Assembly (NCBI GenBank): GCA_028714175.1
Contig: JAQTMV010000001.1
Location: 1 to 64,000, forward strand
From: Methylococcales bacterium
Lineage (GTDB): Bacteria; Pseudomonadota; Gammaproteobacteria; Methylococcales; Methylomonadaceae
Reading direction: 5' to 3'
Length of the DNA stretch: 64,000 nucleotides
This document shows, in pieces, positions 3,635 to 28,291 of this stretch. The notes beneath the pieces are model-generated. The model was not told the origin of the DNA and made no database searches. It worked only from the letters and a program-made list of their open reading frames with translations. How positions within the stretch are numbered: the stretch's first letter is position 1; every line of letters begins with the position of its first letter. The position numbers were made by a program, and so were the translations under genes.

Positions 3635-4845
3635 TGCAGCAAGATTATGATTTATTGATTGCCGGTGGCGGCTTGGCGGGTAACTGTCTGGCCTTGGCTT
3701 TAAAAGATACCGGGCTGCGGATTGCTATTGCTGAAGCCAGTACGCATGAACAGTTGCAAACTTCGCCAGCAGGTGACAGAGCCTTGGCTTTAGCTGCCGG
3801 TACAGTAAACATGCTGGAGGCATTAGGCATCTGGCAAAACATCAGTTACGCTGCGACAGCGATAAAACAGATTCATATTTCTGACCGCGGTCATTTCGGC
3901 AAAACTCGCCTTTCGGCGCAAAAGGAAAAGGTAACGGCATTGGGCTATGTCATTACTGCGCGAGACATTGAAACGCATGTGTTTAATCTGGTTAAAGATG
4001 CCAGCATACAGTTGATTTGTCCGGCCCGTGTTGTTGGTTTGATGGCTGGCGATGACGGAGTTAACGTTAGTTTAAAACAAGGCAATGAAGCGTTAAACAT
4101 ATCGGCCAAATTATTGGTCGGCGCTGACGGTGGATTATCGTCAGTTCGCAAGCTGCTGGATATAGCTCAGCATGTTACAGAGTATGGTCAAACAGCACTG
4201 GTCACTACAATTAAGTCATCTGCTCCTAATAAAAATACCGCATTCGAACGCTTTACAGCTTCTGGACCACTGGCGTTATTGCCCATAGCTAAAAACCACT
4301 GTGCTGTAGTCTGGACGCGCACGAGTGAAGATGCCAACGCGCTGATGTCAGGCAGCGAAGCGGATTTTCTGGAAGAACTGCAACAGTGTTTTGGCTACAA
4401 ACTGGGCAGGCTTGGCCTGACTGCGCCAAGGCGGGCTTTTCCCCTGTCGCTGATACGTGCAGATAAAATGATTGCAGATCGAGCGGTAATTATTGGTAAT
4501 GCGGTACATCAGTTGCACCCCGTTGCAGGCCAGGGGTTTAACTTAGGGTTGCGGGATGTTGTCCGATTGGCTGAAATGCTTATCAAGCAGCATGAACAGA
4601 ATAAAGATATCGGTGCAGCCGATTTTTTAAAGGATTATGCTCTGTCCAGGAAGAAAGATCATGACCGGACAATTGGTTTTACTGATGCTGTGGTTAAGAT
4701 TTTTTCCAATGATTGGTTGGCGCTGGCAGTTGCCAGAAATATCGGGCTGACTTTACTGGATCATGTTCCTGTTGCAAAAACCTTGTTTACTCGCCATGCC
4801 ATGGGGCTTGCGGGGCATATATCCAGACTGGGAAGCAGTAGGTAG
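3634..4845 (+). CDS. ubiH: 2-octaprenyl-6-methoxyphenol hydroxylase (ubiquinone biosynthesis)
   Basis: FAD-dependent aromatic hydroxylase of the ubiquinone pathway. 403 residues. Dinucleotide-binding motif AGGGLAGN near residues 10-17, the DG motif LLVGADGGLSSVR, and the second FAD motif GNAVHQLHPVAGQGFNLGLRD are present. The position after pepP and the HQLHPVAGQG sequence favour UbiH over UbiI or UbiF. The ATG overlaps the pepP stop codon, so translation is probably coupled. No ubiI follows; the next gene is convergent. Confidence 0.92.
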   Translation: MQQDYDLLIAGGGLAGNCLALALKDTGLRIAIAEASTHEQLQTSPAGDRALALAAGTVNMLEALGIWQNISYAATAIKQIHISDRGHFGKTRLSAQKEKVTALGYVITARDIETHVFNLVKDASIQLICPARVVGLMAGDDGVNVSLKQGNEALNISAKLLVGADGGLSSVRKLLDIAQHVTEYGQTALVTTIKSSAPNKNTAFERFTASGPLALLPIAKNHCAVVWTRTSEDANALMSGSEADFLEELQQCFGYKLGRLGLTAPRRAFPLSLIRADKMIADRAVIIGNAVHQLHPVAGQGFNLGLRDVVRLAEMLIKQHEQNKDIGAADFLKDYALSRKKDHDRTIGFTDAVVKIFSNDWLALAVARNIGLTLLDHVPVAKTLFTRHAMGLAGHISRLGSSR

Positions 4846-4912
4846 AGCAACAGCAACTGTGAAATTATTCGATATCTATGATCATAAATTAAAATCACAA
4901 GACTTGCAGAAT

Positions 4913-4946
4913 GCAGAGCTGACTGATTGACTCAAAACAGCTCTGC
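4913..4946. terminator. Hairpin between convergent ubiH and comEA-like genes
   Basis: A perfect 9-bp inverted repeat, GCAGAGCTG (4913-4921) and CAGCTCTGC (4938-4946), lies 67 bp after the ubiH stop. There is no clean T-run after it, so it may be a weak or bidirectional terminator, or an RNA-stabilising hairpin. A second, weaker CACTCAA/TTGAGTG pair lies at 4966-5000. Confidence 0.4.
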
Positions 4947-5012
4947 TGCAAACATAAAAACCAACCACTCAATCGAGAGGGGATCCCGGGTTTTTGAGTG
5001 AGTGATCGCTAT

Positions 5013-5306
5013 CTACTTTGATGTGCTATCTTTCTTTGGTTCGACGGCAACTGCTGCATCACTAAGCAAAATGTCGTTTTTGTTTTTCTCAACGGTCTTT
5101 TCGCCTATACCTGCAACATTGCTCAAGTCTCCGGCTGTTTTGAACAAGCCTTTTTCTGACCTGTATTTTACGATAGCTTCGGCTTTTTTCAGGCCAATGC
5201 CTGACAAGGCTTCCGATATGGTTTTTGCATCAGCTGTATTTACATTAACGGGTGCGGCAATAGCATTGGCAGCACATAGAGATAACAGTATCATTAACTT
5301 TTTCAT
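5013..5306 (-). CDS. ComEA-like helix-hairpin-helix DNA-binding protein, secreted
   Basis: 97 residues with a Sec signal peptide (MKKLMILLSLCAANAIAA) and a mature part made of the ComEA helix-hairpin-helix pair: VNVNTADAKTISEALSGIG then VAGIGEKTVEKNK. Such proteins bind double-stranded DNA in the periplasm during natural transformation. A short lysine-rich C-terminal tail follows the domain. Monocistronic here; no other competence gene is adjacent. Confidence 0.85.
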   Translation of the reverse strand: MKKLMILLSLCAANAIAAPVNVNTADAKTISEALSGIGLKKAEAIVKYRSEKGLFKTAGDLSNVAGIGEKTVEKNKNDILLSDAAVAVEPKKDSTSK

Positions 5307-5555
5307 TGTCTTCCTTAAAGCAAGATTAAAATATTGAATAACCTGGAATAGACTTTGTTGTCACCAAGCAAAATAGCAGGTCTATTCGACATAAAAGTCT
5401 AGTGGGGTATTAAGAAAATACAACGGTAATTTCGCACTATTTATTGACCATGTACGCAATATTTCAATTCGTTGCCAGATTTTCTGGCATATCTGGGTTC
5501 AATCTATATTCTGTAACTGCATTTCCAGGATTATGGTGTCTGAAACTTGCCAACA

Positions 5556-6530
5556 TTAAGCGCTATTAGCAATAATGATAGCTCGTTTTGGGGCCGGCAG
5601 ACCCTCGCAGGTTAGATTTGGGTTTTCTGCATCAAGAAAATCCTGCAACGAATGAAACTGCATCCATTCAGTACTGCGCTGCTCTTCAGTACTGGTTGTA
5701 GTGACATCAATCAGACGAATATTGATAAAGCCGCATCGTTTCAGCCAGCTGATTAATGTTTCGCAACTGGGTAGGAACCAGACATTACGCATTTTGGCAT
5801 AACGACCTTCAGGCACTAACACCTCGCCCAATCTGCCGTCGATAACCAGAGTTTCCAATACCAACTCACCACCGGGTTGCAGGCAGTCTCTTAATTCCAG
5901 AAGATGATCGATGGGCGAACGGCGATGATGAAGCACACCCATGGAAAATACTGTATCAAACGCTTTTAAACCATAAGGTAATTCTTCTATAGCTAATGGC
6001 AAAACATAAACCGGCGCTTCGCCATATAGTTTTCTGATTAGCTGAAACTGCATTACATTAAGCAGTAATGGGTCTATGCCAACCACCATTTTTGCCTTGG
6101 CGCCCAACATACGCCAGCAATGATAGCCATTGCCGCAACCCACATCCAATACCATGCGCTGGCTAAGCGGGCTGATTTGTGCTTGTAAACGATTCCACTT
6201 CCAGTTTGATCGCCATTCGGTGTCAATCTTGATGCCGAATAAATCAAATGGCCCTTTCCGCCAGGGACATAATGTTTTGAGTTGCTGTTCAAGTTGATTT
6301 CCGGCAGCATCAGTCAAGTCATCCGGCCTGCCTATCTGCACGGCATCAGCATCTAATAAACGGTATGTTGCGGTCAATTCAGGCACGCATTCAACCAGGT
6401 TCCGCCATTGTTCCATTGTGCCATGCCTGGTTGAATCAAACGCATTGGTGAGTTGTTGCGGCAATATCCTGACCCAGGCATCGGCATCGACAGCAAGTAG
6501 CGCATTATATAACGGCTGATAATCAATCAT
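5556..6530 (-). CDS. cmoB: tRNA U34 carboxymethyltransferase CmoB
   Basis: Makes 5-carboxymethoxyuridine at the tRNA wobble position using carboxy-S-adenosylmethionine. 324 residues, matching E. coli CmoB (323). The SAM-type binding motif VLDVGCGNGYHCW is at about residues 128-139, followed by MGVLHHRRSPIDHL. The partner cmoA, which makes the carboxy-SAM cofactor and usually sits next door, is absent from this window. Confidence 0.93.
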   Translation of the reverse strand: MIDYQPLYNALLAVDADAWVRILPQQLTNAFDSTRHGTMEQWRNLVECVPELTATYRLLDADAVQIGRPDDLTDAAGNQLEQQLKTLCPWRKGPFDLFGIKIDTEWRSNWKWNRLQAQISPLSQRMVLDVGCGNGYHCWRMLGAKAKMVVGIDPLLLNVMQFQLIRKLYGEAPVYVLPLAIEELPYGLKAFDTVFSMGVLHHRRSPIDHLLELRDCLQPGGELVLETLVIDGRLGEVLVPEGRYAKMRNVWFLPSCETLISWLKRCGFINIRLIDVTTTSTEEQRSTEWMQFHSLQDFLDAENPNLTCEGLPAPKRAIIIANSA

Positions 6531-6620
6531 CAGGACAGCGACTGGTAGGGCGAATACAACGATTTTGAAAACGGGACTGACATAGGGATTATTCAGATGA
6601 TAACCCAGAATAATTTTACC

Positions 6621-6675
6621 TCTGCAGGAGCGGCTTTAACCGCCAGAAATCTCGGCTAAAGCCCCTTCTGCAAGC
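6621..6675. repeat. REP-like palindrome (AGGAGCGGCTTTA type)
   Basis: Near-palindromic sequence between cmoB and the mlaC-like gene: CTGCAGGAGCGGCTTTAAC on the left pairs imperfectly with the complement of CTCGGCTAAAGCCCCTTCTG on the right. Its core resembles the widespread AGGAGCGGCTTTAGCCGCG repetitive extragenic palindromes of gammaproteobacteria. Probably an mRNA 3'-end structure or a RAYT-mobilised repeat. Confidence 0.6.
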
Positions 6676-6819
6676 CAATTGATTGAACTGGGCGGGGCAT
6701 ATTCTTTTCCGCGAATCACTTTGCTGCTAAACTAAAGGTACAGATAGGCAAGGGGGCAACACTAATGCTTACCAACTAACTCTGACGACTAATGATAGTC
6801 ATGCTGCTCAAACTATAGC

Positions 6820-7455
6820 CTATGATCTTTTTGCTGTCAGTGCTTCACTATTTCGTTTTGCCAGGTTATCAATAACCGCGTCTAATGAACCTTTAGTTTG
6901 GGCTTCGTTGCTAAAAGTCGTGCGGTAGTTAGTCACCAGACTCACACCTTCAATCATAATATCGTAGGCTTTCCATTCGCCCTTGCTTAGCAGCATACGG
7001 TAATTTACGGCAACAGGCTGTAGACCGGGCTGCAACACTTCTGTTTTTACGATGACTTTTGTCGCATCATTTTCCATGTCAAGGGGCAAATAACGAATCG
7101 ACCAGTCTTTAAACTCGACAAATGCGCGGGAATAGGTTCTTACCAGTAACGTTTGAAACTCCTGCTTAAAACGCTCCCGTTCGTCAGGTGTTGCAGTTTT
7201 CCAGAGCTTCCCCAGGACTAATGCAGAAATCCTGTCGAAATCAGTATGTGGTAAAATAGTTTCGTTAACAAATTGGGTGACTTTTGTAAAATCCTTGATA
7301 AAGGATTTATCCTGCATTCTTTGCTGTAATTTTGCCGAAGCAATTTCTATGGCTTGTTGTGGGGGCAACAAATTAGCCGCCATTACGTCCGTAATAGGCA
7401 TTAAAGCCATTAATATTGCAAATAAACCAAATAATGTGTTGTGTTTTGCTTTCAT
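6820..7455 (-). CDS. MlaC/Ttg2D family phospholipid-binding periplasmic protein
   Basis: 211 residues with a Sec signal peptide (residues 1-26, ending DVMAA) and the MlaC fold, recognisable from FVNETILPHTDFDRISALVLGKLWKTAT and a mid-protein segment with FQTLLVRTYSRAF. MlaC ferries phospholipid between the outer-membrane MlaA complex and the inner-membrane MlaFEDB transporter. Here it stands alone, with no mlaD/E/F genes beside it, so it may be a stand-alone paralogue. Confidence 0.83.
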   Translation of the reverse strand: MKAKHNTLFGLFAILMALMPITDVMAANLLPPQQAIEIASAKLQQRMQDKSFIKDFTKVTQFVNETILPHTDFDRISALVLGKLWKTATPDERERFKQEFQTLLVRTYSRAFVEFKDWSIRYLPLDMENDATKVIVKTEVLQPGLQPVAVNYRMLLSKGEWKAYDIMIEGVSLVTNYRTTFSNEAQTKGSLDAVIDNLAKRNSEALTAKRS

Positions 7456-7806
7456 AAAAAACCTCTAAAATCAAGCCGGTGTATGCATACCATATTTTTC
7501 AAATATAGTAAGTGCATTCCCTGATACAATAGTTTCTTAGCCAGTAGGCTGACGTTATTACCTACCTGCAAATCTCGACGAACTAACCTATAAGTATATA
7601 TAAGATGATATATAATAACATCAATTTTCTTCGCACAGGTATGAGAAGAATGTATTTTCACCGGCTGCCGGGGTAATAATTCGAGAGTGATGAGTTATTT
7701 TATTTGGTACAAGTTCTCCCGGGGAGCTATTTTTTAGTACGCCAGGTTTGAGTTAGCGGAAGTGTAATGCAACAATTGAATTCCAAATATATTTATGGGA
7801 CACATA
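7456..7806. other. Intergenic region upstream of divergent mlaC-like and gspG genes
   Basis: AT-rich, no gene recognised. It should contain the divergent promoters of the MlaC-like gene and the secretion operon. It carries the hairpin listed at 7712-7735. Short open frames on the minus strand here have no recognisable product. Confidence 0.5.
7712..7735 (+). terminator. Terminator/attenuator-like hairpin in the gsp leader
   Basis: AGTTCTCCCGGGGAGCT (7712-7728) folds into a 7-bp hairpin (with G-T pairs) followed by ATTTTTT on the plus strand, 70 bp before gspG. There is no plus-strand gene just upstream, so if real it would act as a leader attenuator of the secretion operon. Confidence 0.35.
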
Positions 7807-23500: not shown

Positions 23501-23758
23501 TTATCGGTACACGTCTTTACGGTATGCAATCTTGACGACCGCAACAATTAGAACAGTATCATTAATACTGTAAATAACGCGATATTCGCCGACTCGAATG
23601 CGGTAAAAATTAAAAGTGGATTTAAGCTTTTTTACCCCAGAAGGGCGTGGATTAACACATAACTGCTCTAAGGCTTCAAGTATTTTACCTTGCAAAGCTT
23701 TTGGCAATTTGCCAAACGCCTTTTCAGCCGATGGTTTAATGATGATTTCATAAGCCAT
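23501..23758 (-). CDS. RelE/ParE-family toxin
   Basis: 85 residues. Pattern AYEIIIKPSAEKAFGKLPKALQ, GVKKLKSTFNFYRIRVGEYRVIYSI and terminal KIAYRKDVYR is typical of the RelE superfamily, whose members cleave mRNA on the ribosome or poison gyrase. It overlaps the upstream antitoxin by 11 bp. The toxin stop lies only 10 bp from repeat copy 1. Confidence 0.85.
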   Translation of the reverse strand: MAYEIIIKPSAEKAFGKLPKALQGKILEALEQLCVNPRPSGVKKLKSTFNFYRIRVGEYRVIYSINDTVLIVAVVKIAYRKDVYR

Positions 23759-24400: not shown

Positions 24401-25816
24401 CTAGTGCGCTTTCTCGAACTCGAAGTTGAGCGTCCGGCTGCCGCTCGGCACTCGCTTCGGAATGAGCGTCTTCAGGCGTTCAGGCAGGATACGCGGGTCA
24501 AGCAGACCGTATTTCACGAAATCGACAAGATCAGAGAACTCCTCGTCGGAGAGCACGATCGGAGTCTGTAGCAGTGGATCAAGCCTAGCGAGCACAGGTT
24601 CGATCGGGCCAGGCTGCCCCTGCATATCCACCGGGAGTCCGCTCGGAAAATAATTGCGCGCAGAAGTATAGGGGTCCAAATGGTGACGGATGGCATCCTC
24701 AAGATGGACGAATGCGCCATTGTGCATGAAAGCCGGCATAACCGCAGCGTTGCGTAGCGGTGCTGTCCGAAACATGTAGCGATCTGCGGGGACCCCAGTG
24801 ATCTGCTCAAGGCCAAAATCCTCGTCAGCGCCCGGTCCATCGAATACCACGTTTCCAAACGAAGGAACGACCTGCGGAACTCCGATCACATGCTGCCTGA
24901 AGTCGCTAAACATCTCGTTGGACTGTCCCGCTACTTTATGACATTGCACACACCCTGCTTTTCCAAAAAAGAGCAACGCGCCCTTCTTCTGGCTCTCCGT
25001 CAACGCATTACGCTGGCCACGAGCAAAGCGGTCGAGGGGTGCGTTGGCGAAAACCAGGGTGAACTCGAACTCGGCGATTGCCTTGCCGAAGTGATCAAAG
25101 TTGATGGGGGCTCCGTTCGCGGCCTCCGGAAACACCTGACCGAATAATTTCCTATACTCGCTGATCCCGTTCAGGCGGTGCAGCACCTCGTTTCGGATGT
25201 CATCGTTGCCGCCCGGAAAGCTGAATCCGGCGACCTCGACACGCTCCGTAGGCGGGATGAAGGCCTGCGCGACCAGCAGGTGTGGCTGGTAGGACAACGA
25301 AAGTCCCTCGGGAGGCGGGAATTTGAATCCGGCGCTATTGTCAAATGGATCGCCCGACAACGCAGCAAACCGCGAATTCCACATTAGCGTGGGATACAAC
25401 GGCGTGTTAACAGCGAGCGGTGTGCGACGTTGATTGCGCGGCCCCGTCCGTTTCGGGCCAACGACGAGGTTGTTGTCAATACCGATGGCAATTGGCTGAG
25501 TGTCACCGAAGCCGTTCGTAGGCGAGTGACAACCACCGCAAGTGTTGTCGTCGTTCAGGCCGCCAATGATATCAAACCAAAGCAGCCGACCAAGATTGGC
25601 GCGCTTCTTATCGATCGGGCGCCCGAGCTTCTGCTTGAAATTCGTCTCGATGGTGCCTGTGAATCCGTGGCTCGCAAGCGCTGTAATGAGCTGACTGTCA
25701 AGCGAGTTGCCGTTACCAGTCTGAGTGCTCTGAAACCCCAAGAGGTAGATCAGTGTCGCTGCGAAGAAGTATAACGCAGCTTTAGGGATAGAAGAGATAA
25801 AGAAGCCTTTTCTTAT
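24401..25816 (-). CDS. Diheme cytochrome c peroxidase-family protein (CCP/MauG-like)
   Basis: About 471 residues from the proposed ATA start. An N-terminal signal or anchor (ALYFFAATLIYLLGF) is followed by two c-type heme sites, CGGCH (about residues 93-97) and CVQCH (about 289-293), in the two-domain layout of bacterial diheme peroxidases. Family members reduce hydrogen peroxide or, as in MauG, oxidise a partner protein in the periplasm. The open frame extends to 25927 but contains no ATG or GTG suited to start there; GGAGG (25826-25822) stands 5 nt before ATA (25816-25814), followed by a Lys/Arg start to a signal peptide. GC content appears higher than in flanking housekeeping genes. Confidence 0.82.
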   Translation of the reverse strand: MRKGFFISSIPKAALYFFAATLIYLLGFQSTQTGNGNSLDSQLITALASHGFTGTIETNFKQKLGRPIDKKRANLGRLLWFDIIGGLNDDNTCGGCHSPTNGFGDTQPIAIGIDNNLVVGPKRTGPRNQRRTPLAVNTPLYPTLMWNSRFAALSGDPFDNSAGFKFPPPEGLSLSYQPHLLVAQAFIPPTERVEVAGFSFPGGNDDIRNEVLHRLNGISEYRKLFGQVFPEAANGAPINFDHFGKAIAEFEFTLVFANAPLDRFARGQRNALTESQKKGALLFFGKAGCVQCHKVAGQSNEMFSDFRQHVIGVPQVVPSFGNVVFDGPGADEDFGLEQITGVPADRYMFRTAPLRNAAVMPAFMHNGAFVHLEDAIRHHLDPYTSARNYFPSGLPVDMQGQPGPIEPVLARLDPLLQTPIVLSDEEFSDLVDFVKYGLLDPRILPERLKTLIPKRVPSGSRTLNFEFEKAH

Positions 25817-25978
25817 GGTGGCCTCCAAAAAAAATAGAATTACTATTCTTCGTATCCAGGTGTGGAGCAAAGGAAGACTACGAAGAACTATGACTGCAAC
25901 CGCATAAACTAACAAGCTATTATCCAAGCAGTTGGGTAAGGAGGCGATATCGCTATCACCTCCTCCCCGCAGTTGTCC

Positions 25979-26458
25979 TTATTTTTTATTAATCTGGATC
26001 TCTTTCGTACCGCCTGGGATGAATTCTGATATAGGAGGATTCGGAGGAATAGTATTGAAGTTGACCAAGCTAGCTGAAGATTGCACGACGGCCGAACCCC
26101 CTCTGAATGTTCTAAGCTGGCTGGTTACAACAACTTCCAATCTCTGGGTATGGCGACCGTCATCTGTATTGATGTCTGTGCAGTTAATTTTAGTTGTGAG
26201 TGAATTTTGTCCAAAGGCAACCCAATCCCCCCCGGAGCGTTGAGTGAGTGTCAGATTTAGACCCACTTGGGCGTCCGCACCATCAGCAGGGGAGCAAGTG
26301 AAATCGACTATCACATTTGCACCCACACCCTCGAAGACAAGGCTGGCAGCTACCACATCGATGCTATCTATGTCTACCTCCGCAGTCGCCAGGGTAGGAA
26401 TTGACAGCATAGCGATAGCAAGGGCTAATGCCGGGATGAAACGAATTTGCTTGTTCAT
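25979..26458 (-). CDS. Small secreted protein of unknown function
   Basis: 159 residues: clear Sec signal peptide (residues 1-26, ALALAIAMLSIPTLATA) and a Thr/Val/Ser-rich, probably beta-structured mature part with two cysteines (VDFTCSPAD and KINCTDIN). No family recognised. AGGAGA lies before the ATG. It is the first gene downstream of the sigma-54-type promoter and is followed 160 bp later by the diheme peroxidase, suggesting joint expression; it could be a peroxidase partner or substrate, which is speculation. Confidence 0.7.
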   Translation of the reverse strand: MNKQIRFIPALALAIAMLSIPTLATAEVDIDSIDVVAASLVFEGVGANVIVDFTCSPADGADAQVGLNLTLTQRSGGDWVAFGQNSLTTKINCTDINTDDGRHTQRLEVVVTSQLRTFRGGSAVVQSSASLVNFNTIPPNPPISEFIPGGTKEIQINKK

Positions 26459-26683
26459 TGCTTTCTCCTGTTAATTTAAACGCTCTCACAGAAGAACCTC
26501 GAAACTAATAGTCTCTCCTGTGAGAAATGAAGATATGAAAGGATACGTTTTACACCGTTAATCTGAAACCCATGTAATCAAAGACAGTACCTCCTTTCTC
26601 ATCACCGATCGACTAACCAGTCTCGGAAAATATTTCATCTGCGTTCTCCGTTCATTAGTTTATGAAGAACACTCTATAATAGT

Positions 26684-26701
26684 AAGCACTATAAATGCCA
26701 A
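26684..26701 (-). promoter_or_regulatory. Sigma-54-type -24/-12 promoter
   Basis: On the minus strand TTGGCATTTATAGTGCTT has GG and GC with exactly 10 bases between, the invariant sigma-54 spacing (consensus TGGCAC-N5-TTGC). Transcription would start near 26674, leaving a leader of about 215 nt before the secreted-protein gene. An RpoN-dependent activator is encoded directly upstream. Confidence 0.62.
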
Positions 26702-26761
26702 TGTTATATTCCCAGTAAAATCAATGCCTGGCTTAAAGCAGCAAACACGTTAACTCCTTTC

Positions 26762-26800
26762 TTGCAACAGAATGTTGCAAGTTTTGGTTGCAGTTGCAAC
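26762..26800. promoter_or_regulatory. Paired TTGCAAC palindromes, candidate enhancer for the sigma-54 activator
   Basis: Two exact inverted repeats: TTGCAAC-agaat-GTTGCAA (26762-26780) and GTTGCA-gt-TGCAAC (26787-26800). They lie 60-100 bp upstream of the -24/-12 element and 18 bp after the activator gene. Paired Fis-type dimer sites at this distance are what an enhancer-binding protein uses. Confidence 0.6.
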
Positions 26801-26817: not shown

Positions 26818-27876
26818 TCAGTTGTGTTTACTTAGCCCGAGGCTTTGCATCTGCCGCCACAGCGTCGTGCGGTGCATACCCAGGGCGGCGGCAGTACGCT
26901 CAAGATGCCAGTGATGCTGCTCCAGAGCTTTACACAAGGTCTCGGCGTCCGGGTTGGCGACTTGGATTGGGGGCGGGGGGATTACGGCGGGATTTGAAAA
27001 AGGTGATGGCGATCTTCTGTCGCCTTTTCTCTTTTCCTCGTAAAGCGGCCGGGGCAAGGCGATTTCAAATGGCCCCAGATCGTTCATATCGATGACGTCG
27101 CCCGGACAATAAACGAAGGCATGTTCGATCGCGTTTTTCAGCTCTCGCACATTGCCTGGCCAAGGACGGCCGGTCAATTCTTCCATCGCTTCGGAGGTAA
27201 TGCCTTTGATCTTATTAGAAAAGCGTTGGTTGAAGAGTTGAATGAAATGCTCGACCAGTGCAGGGATGTCGTCGCGGCGCTCCCGCAGCGGCGGTAGAGT
27301 TAATGTTACGGTATTGAGGCGATAGAAAAGATCGGCGCGAAAACGGCCCGATGCAACTTCGGGCGCAAGGTTTTTGTTGGTGGCCGTAATGACCCGTATG
27401 TCTAGTGGGTGCGTTATGTTGCAGCCCACTTGCTCGAGGCACTTTTGTTCCAGCACCCGGAGCAAACGCATCTGGATCGCCGGGGAAATATCGCCGATTT
27501 CATCCAGGAAAAGGGTACCGCCCTGCGCTGCCTCAAAGCGCCCTAGCCGATCCTTGATTGCACCCGTAAAGGCGCCCTTGACATGGCCGAAAAGCTCGCT
27601 TTCCAACAGATGTTCACAGAAGGCGGAGCAATTCACCTGCACGAGCGGAGCAGCCCTCCGTGAACTCGATTTGTGGATCGCTTCGGCAGCCAGTTCCTTG
27701 CCGGTACCTGTTTCACCGTAAATAAGCACCGTCGTATCGGTCCGGGCAAGACACTCGATCTTCTGATACACCTGCTGCATGACAGGAGAGCGGCCCACCA
27801 AACGGCCCAAAGAGGGACATTTTCTTTGTGCTTTGAAAAGAGGGAGGTGACTCATATTGCTAATCCCGTAAGGCAT
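26818..27876 (-). CDS. Sigma-54-dependent transcriptional activator without sensor domain
   Basis: 352 residues. AAA+ domain: Walker A GETGTGKE, the sigma-54 contact loop GAFTGA, Walker B GGTLFLDEIGD, arginine finger region FRADLFYRLN. A Fis-type helix-turn-helix closes the protein (ERTAAALGMHRTTLWRQMQSLG). Only about 25 residues precede the AAA+ core, so there is no receiver or ligand domain; control must come from another protein or from expression level, as for PspF. Starts at 27876 or the internal ATG of MSHLPLF. A proline-rich linker precedes the HTH. Confidence 0.9.
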   Translation of the reverse strand: MPYGISNMSHLPLFKAQRKCPSLGRLVGRSPVMQQVYQKIECLARTDTTVLIYGETGTGKELAAEAIHKSSSRRAAPLVQVNCSAFCEHLLESELFGHVKGAFTGAIKDRLGRFEAAQGGTLFLDEIGDISPAIQMRLLRVLEQKCLEQVGCNITHPLDIRVITATNKNLAPEVASGRFRADLFYRLNTVTLTLPPLRERRDDIPALVEHFIQLFNQRFSNKIKGITSEAMEELTGRPWPGNVRELKNAIEHAFVYCPGDVIDMNDLGPFEIALPRPLYEEKRKGDRRSPSPFSNPAVIPPPPIQVANPDAETLCKALEQHHWHLERTAAALGMHRTTLWRQMQSLGLSKHN

Positions 27877-28051: not shown

Positions 28052-28291
28052 TTAGGTCAGTTCTAAACGTTTTTCAATACGGTCTATACGATCATTCAGC
28101 CGGTCATACCGCAGATGTTGATCTGCAATACTGGCCGCGAAATCACCACCATCTCTTCGCAGACTGGCAATACCACTTTCCACGATTATTAACCGTGATT
28201 TAATTTCCCGCGTATCCTCTTTTACGGATGCTATATCAGCTCTGATAGCGCGTAGCTGCTCCAGCACAAGGTTGTCTATATTATCGGTCAT
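28052..28291 (-). CDS. Small coiled-coil protein of unknown function
   Basis: 79 residues, almost entirely helical with heptad patterning: LEQLRAIRADIASVKEDTREIKSRL and YDRLNDRIDRIEKRLEL. Such short proteins are common conserved hypotheticals in proteobacteria; no function can be assigned. Start has AGGGACAAG upstream. Confidence 0.65.
   Translation of the reverse strand: MTDNIDNLVLEQLRAIRADIASVKEDTREIKSRLIIVESGIASLRRDGGDFAASIADQHLRYDRLNDRIDRIEKRLELT

Follow-up and report, generated by a model that had tools for sequence, protein, structure and literature searches.

PspF is an example of an enhancer-binding protein (EBP) that is composed of an AAA+ domain and an HTH without an N-terminal sensory domain, acting on a local target with possible help from IHF. 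EBPs have been grouped into classes, including those that have no N-terminal regulatory domain (PMC7175178). In Desulfovibrio, co-localised EBP regulons have been described in which the EBP genes adjoin their target operons (PMC4641369), and for NtrC a consensus box, TGCACCAnnnTGGTGCA (TGCACC-N5-GGTGCA), has been published (PMC8743547; PMC4987338).

The locus considered here lies in a 64-kb window (the whole stretch of 64,000 nucleotides that was analysed) and is probably a local sigma-54 control region composed of an adjacent EBP, its enhancer, a promoter, and a 159-aa target. It resembles the PspF system in having an EBP made up of AAA+ and HTH, with the sensory domain absent, a local target, and possible IHF help, but the EBP scores far below the PspF cut-off, pspA does not adjoin it, and the operator is different. 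The likeness to NtrC consists in a 17-bp dyad, its TGCA cores 13 bp apart, that precedes a -24/-12 promoter, and in an AAA+ GAFTGA activator with a Fis-type HTH; in contrast to the NtrC box, the inner letters here are AC/GT, not CC/GG, and a third half-site overlaps the dyad, while the EBP is without a receiver domain and there is one full operator in the genome. Similar to the Desulfovibrio regulons, the EBP gene is found by its predicted target operon together with putative EBP sites and a conserved sigma-54 promoter, whereas here the enhancer and promoter appear to be inherited with the EBP gene and the target gene varies between genomes. The predicted control region is real but of a familiar, ordinary kind, and is well supported by conservation.

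The activator and its domains

The orphan sigma-54 EBP (352 aa) is encoded at 26818..27876 on the - strand. Its Pfam domains are Sigma54_activat (PF00158, 3.6e-67), AAA_lid_14 (1.5e-25), and HTH_8 (PF02954, 8.8e-8), the last being a C-terminal Fis-type HTH at residues 314-344. The AAA+ domain, with the Walker and GAFTGA motifs of this class (GETGTGKE, GAFTGA, and FLDEIG in the translation), begins at residue 26, and there is no N-terminal sensory domain; because of this, control of the EBP is probably through how much of it is supplied or through some partner. The protein is above no cut-off among the NCBIfam equivalog models listed (NifA, NtrC, NorR, PspF, and others): it reaches 309.9 bits against the ntrC model (cut-off 558.6), which together with the missing receiver domain sets it apart from NtrC regulators, and 266.3 bits against the PspF model (cut-off 443.55), which excludes it from PspF. 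Between the EBP and its ortholog at a second locus, L001 of a Methylobacter MAG, the recognition helix (GMHRTTLWR[QR]MQSLGL) is almost unchanged; it is unlike the helix of the NtrC-like EBP in this genome (L015; GYGRNTLTRKIKELGI), which we infer to be NtrC. A sigma-70-like TAGGCA-17-TATAAT precedes the EBP start (27944-27916), a match whose frequency is as expected by chance. The gene upstream of the EBP is dapB in the window and PP2C-kinase in L001, and a small coiled-coil-like ORF (MTDNIDNLVLEQLRAIRADIASVKEDTREIKSRL...; 28052-28291, - strand) lies between dapB and the EBP.

The predicted promoter element and the half-sites upstream of it

Reading the - strand away from the activator gene, CGAAACGTTGCAACTGCAACCAAAACTTGCAACATTCTGTTGCAAG comes first, then a spacer of ~60 bp, and then the -24/-12 element TTGGCATTTATAGTGCTT (26701-26684), which has a counterpart in L001. 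The GG at 26699/26698 and the GC at 26687/26686 give the GG-N10-GC spacing just where the original prediction had placed it. TGGCA is exact and the -12 part, GTGCT, has one mismatch to the TTGCW of TGGCACG-N4-TTGCW; both doublets of a sigma-54 promoter are present, and the GTGC in place of TTGC counts against the sigma-54 reading. Taken alone, the element is no better than chance, as 0.96 matches to TGGCAYN6TGCW are expected per 64-kb window, and the top score, under home-made weights set after the sigma-54 consensus, is tied among three window sites (TTGGCATTTATAGTGCTT and two others). The site is credible because of its position and strand, for which the chance of an equally good site on the right strand of the 360-bp intergenic region is ~0.008. 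RpoN is encoded in the genome (PF04552, 8.1e-67). Transcription is predicted to start at 26674 (- strand), ~12 bases past the -12 GC, a position derived from spacing alone.

Between operator and promoter there is an IHF-like site, AATCAATGCCTGG (26719..26731, + strand), with one mismatch to WATCAANNNNTTR. At the aligned spacer position L001 has AATCAAAAACCTA, likewise one mismatch from the IHF consensus (AATCAA-type); ~0.1 such matches are expected per 60 bp, which makes the IHF-like match weak evidence. The region had been described as a complete control region, and its elements are indeed all present, but that description omitted this weak spacer site.

Two TTGCAAC palindromes had been predicted 60-100 bp upstream of the promoter element, and TTGCAAC-N5-GTTGCAA and GTTGCA-N2-TGCAAC sit 63-101 bp upstream of the -24 GG, in agreement with this. 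The first, TTGCAAC-AGAAT-GTTGCAA at 26762-26780, extends at 26761-26781 to the dyad CTTGCAAC-AGAAT-GTTGCAAG, which is unique in its own genome and whose half-site centres, 26764.5 and 26777.5, are separated from the -24 GG by 66 and 79 bp; TTGCAAC-N5-GTTGCA is kept in L001 (3487-3504). A third half-site, CTGCAA on the - strand (26788..26793), lies 13 bp from the middle one, a spacing kept in L001 (3474-3479), and with the shared middle half-site it makes an overlapping second dyad, TGCAAY-N5-STTGCAA. The palindrome originally given as the second, GTTGCA-GT-TGCAAC (26787-26800), is completed by a fourth TTGCAA copy (26794..26800) whose 2-bp spacer corresponds to one of 1 bp in the ortholog; with its spacing unconserved, this copy would be an auxiliary or degenerate site. 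Of the two-palindrome operator, then, the first dyad is conserved and the second is not kept in that form, and three TGCA-centred half-sites 13 bp apart, in NtrC-box geometry, are the better description of the conserved core. Beyond the palindromes it is 17 bases to the end of the activator ORF at 26818.

Taken singly, TTGCAAC shows no enrichment in the window (21 seen, 17.5 expected), while the expectation for the spaced pair in shuffles is 0.00. In pattern searches, on which all genome-wide statements here rest, the 4.86-Mb genome holds the exact spaced pair just once, and the triple half-site pattern at 0 mismatches is found only at this locus in the two genomes that carry it (G000 and G155), its next best matches having 1-2 mismatches. 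The operator is not due to chance. The genome scan proposed earlier for more TTGCAAC pairs yielded no second copy of the full operator, which makes a single-target local regulator likely; a wider TTGCAAC regulon was rejected on the uniqueness of the exact pair.

As the geometry is that of the NtrC box, phosphorylated NtrC instead of the adjacent EBP might bind here. Of the 14 positions specified in the published box, TGCAACAGAATGTTGCA shares 12, its half-sites have the identical 13-bp spacing, and L015 supplies an NtrC-like recognition helix. However, the two departures from the box are symmetric and recur in L001, which agrees with it at only 10 of the 14; both genomes have AC/GT in place of the CC/GG of TGCACC-N5-GGTGCA. 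NtrC is generally expected throughout the family, unlike this operator, which is restricted to the two genomes with this EBP; moreover, the EBP is 17 bp from the operator and its recognition helix is unlike the NtrC-like one. Binding by NtrC is accordingly considered very improbable. The NtrC boxes of the genome itself were of no help as a reference, their one-mismatch matches lying mostly in open frames and being uninformative.

The long palindrome at 26761-26781 was also considered as a terminator or RNA hairpin ending the EBP message, a scan having flagged CTTGCAACAGAATGTTGCAAG with TTTT as terminator-like on the + strand. The terminator reading was rejected because that strand is the wrong one for the T run: the EBP and its neighbours are read from the - strand, on which AAAGG comes after the stem (TAGC in L001). 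Furthermore, what is conserved are the TGCA letters and the 13-bp repeat, including the half-sites outside the hairpin, which leaves a hairpin function very improbable indeed.

Conservation in a second genus

A GTDB contig scan of ~85,000 species genomes, which needs exact short peptides and therefore reaches close relatives only, found one clear EBP ortholog, 74% identical, in L001. The EBP is present in two of the 237 genomes of the family, and the operator, even at one mismatch, occurs in the same two. No further orthologs were found in 311 genomes of the order, none in viral contigs, and none above 60% identity on plasmids. Because the operator adjoins the EBP gene in both genomes, the two form one inherited unit, and their co-occurrence counts as a single locus passed on by descent and not as two independent cases. 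The earlier prediction is mostly right: a sigma-54 promoter with an upstream operator beside an EBP gene is supported as a unit conserved in a second genus and absent elsewhere among the 237 genomes, although not in its two-palindrome form.

After the EBP, L001 carries CTGCAA-N7-TTGCAA-N7-TTGCAG and then the -24/-12 element TGGCATTTATCTTGC (CTGGCATTTATCTTGCGC), which with TGGCA and TTGC is better than that of the window. The half-site centres are 66/79/92 bp from the -24 GG in the window and 67/80/93 bp in L001. From the EBP stop to the -12, the two loci align with 100 identities, 28 mismatches, and 10 gaps (maximum 80 identities in 200 shuffles), while over the 100 bp that follow the figures are 45 identities, 37 mismatches, and 36 gaps, so that conservation fades just beyond the predicted start site. 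This conservation of operator and -24/-12 in a second genus is the strong evidence that they are real.

Such a block could also have been kept only through a recently exchanged DNA segment, with its sites functionless; its presence in 2 of 237 genomes with different flanking genes suits horizontal transfer. The EBP coding DNA is, however, already down to 862 identical of 1047 aligned bases, and the intergenic block still has 100 identical of 128; identity fades right past the predicted start, and the TGCA cores, their spacing, and GG/GC are all kept. A functionless exchanged segment is thus judged very unlikely. A dispersed repeat encoding CGREFIRA.G.AR.NSRP was also seen at several places in L001 (e.g., inside ORF 4678-7470); it begins some ORFs or lies within them, and in the nitrate-reductase-like gene it is in frame.

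In the local sigma-54 reading, the EBP (26818-27876) would sit as dimers on the TGCA-centred half-sites just past its own stop codon, oligomerise there, and loop across the 60-65-bp spacer, IHF possibly helping. Its GAFTGA loop and ATPase would open sigma-54 RNA polymerase at TTGGCA-N6-TGC, with a start near 26674, the output being the gene of the secreted 159-aa protein and perhaps the MauG-like ORF behind it. The EBP, operator, and promoter would form one inherited unit that in two genera stands ahead of different secreted-protein genes. Domain content, the sequence elements, their positional conservation, and their exclusive co-occurrence are what the computation shows. This explanation is weakest in its single ortholog, its long leader (~215 nt), and the GTGC of the -12.

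Predicted target genes, leader, and parallel loci

The predicted target is a 159-aa protein with an N-terminal signal-like sequence (25979..26458, - strand). No family was found for it in Pfam or NCBIfam, and its predicted structure (mean pLDDT 50.9) is too poor for a fold search. Behind it lies a di-haem cytochrome c peroxidase/MauG-like ORF (24401..25927, - strand; PF03150, 7.6e-29), possibly the second gene of the operon; cytochrome c peroxidases and MauG are among its PDB relatives. This ORF has no obvious ATG (25815-25927, - strand); GGAGG stands just before an in-frame ATA that opens the signal-like stretch RKGFFISSIPKAALYFFAATLIYLLGF, suggesting an unusual or damaged start. Between the two genes, at approximately 25939-25964 (- strand), there is a perfect 11-bp hairpin with a GCGA loop and no T run (fold z-score -4.4), which may uncouple them. 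A ParE-type toxin gene (PF05016) is found at 23501-23758 on the - strand.

The predicted 5' leader is long, ~215 nt (26459..26673, - strand). Homologs of the 159-aa protein, 138 aa long, were identified in another genus (L027 and L028), where they share a leader of ~180 bp with the window, corresponding to the last ~180 bases here; neither EBP nor operator was seen beside them. Because this leader is shared without EBP or operator, it is suggested that near 26620-26660 the unit of EBP, operator, and promoter became attached to a gene that already had this leader (direction unproven). The leader also has a 26-aa ORF (MKYFPRLVSRSVMRKEVLSLITWVSD; 26638-26558, - strand) with GGAG upstream, either a leader peptide or chance. 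At 26440-26674 (- strand) the fold of the leader is somewhat better than those of shuffles (z -2.1), an inverted repeat, CTCACAG...CTGTGAG, is present, and Rfam gave nothing real on the control and leader region.

The next gene in L001 encodes a different product, a secreted protein of 272 aa that carries a CSPGYW motif and has no match in the window's genome. Its homologs were found in G053, G073, and G089, three genomes from another genus; in each case the gene lies directly behind a different EBP, 840-851 aa long, whose sensory regions are called PAS-like from their sequence. Near these loci are strong -24/-12 sites (TTGGCACGGGCGTTGC, TTGGCACGGAGGTTGC, and TTGGCCCGGCAGTTGC), with TGTCTCA/TGAGACA palindromes upstream of them after the EBP stop. 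The three loci resemble the window in having an EBP gene, palindromes past its stop, a strong -24/-12, and a gene for a secreted protein, here related to the target of L001; they differ in the length and PAS-like regions of the EBP and in the palindromes. As these are TGTCTCA/TGAGACA rather than TTGCAAC, the same EBP-operator-promoter layout has arisen there independently, in parallel, with an unrelated operator. Secreted proteins with CSPGYWRQ/KN recur in several genera behind unrelated regulators (L046-L053), either a PAS-EBP or, in L046, a LuxR/NarL-type regulator. The CSPGYWRQ/KN members tested belong to no Pfam or NCBIfam family, and nothing useful was found in the literature on TTGCAAC with sigma-54 or on CSPGYW.

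The locus is likely to represent a single-target orphan activator that, with its own enhancer and promoter, has become linked to different genes for secreted proteins. A further reading, tentative and on balance doubtful, is that EBP gene, enhancer, and sigma-54 promoter form a compact cassette moved as one piece before different secreted-protein genes in different genera, here taking over the leader of a pre-existing gene; if true, it would be a simple route to rewiring sigma-54 control. An uncharacterised activator gains a concrete predicted operator of three TGCA half-sites 13 bp apart and a single predicted target. The comparison suggests a way of rewiring sigma-54 control in which the regulator brings its enhancer and promoter along and the target gene changes, and the parallel PAS-EBP loci suggest that adjacent sigma-54 activators have repeatedly been placed over CSPGYW-type secreted proteins in these methanotroph-related bacteria.
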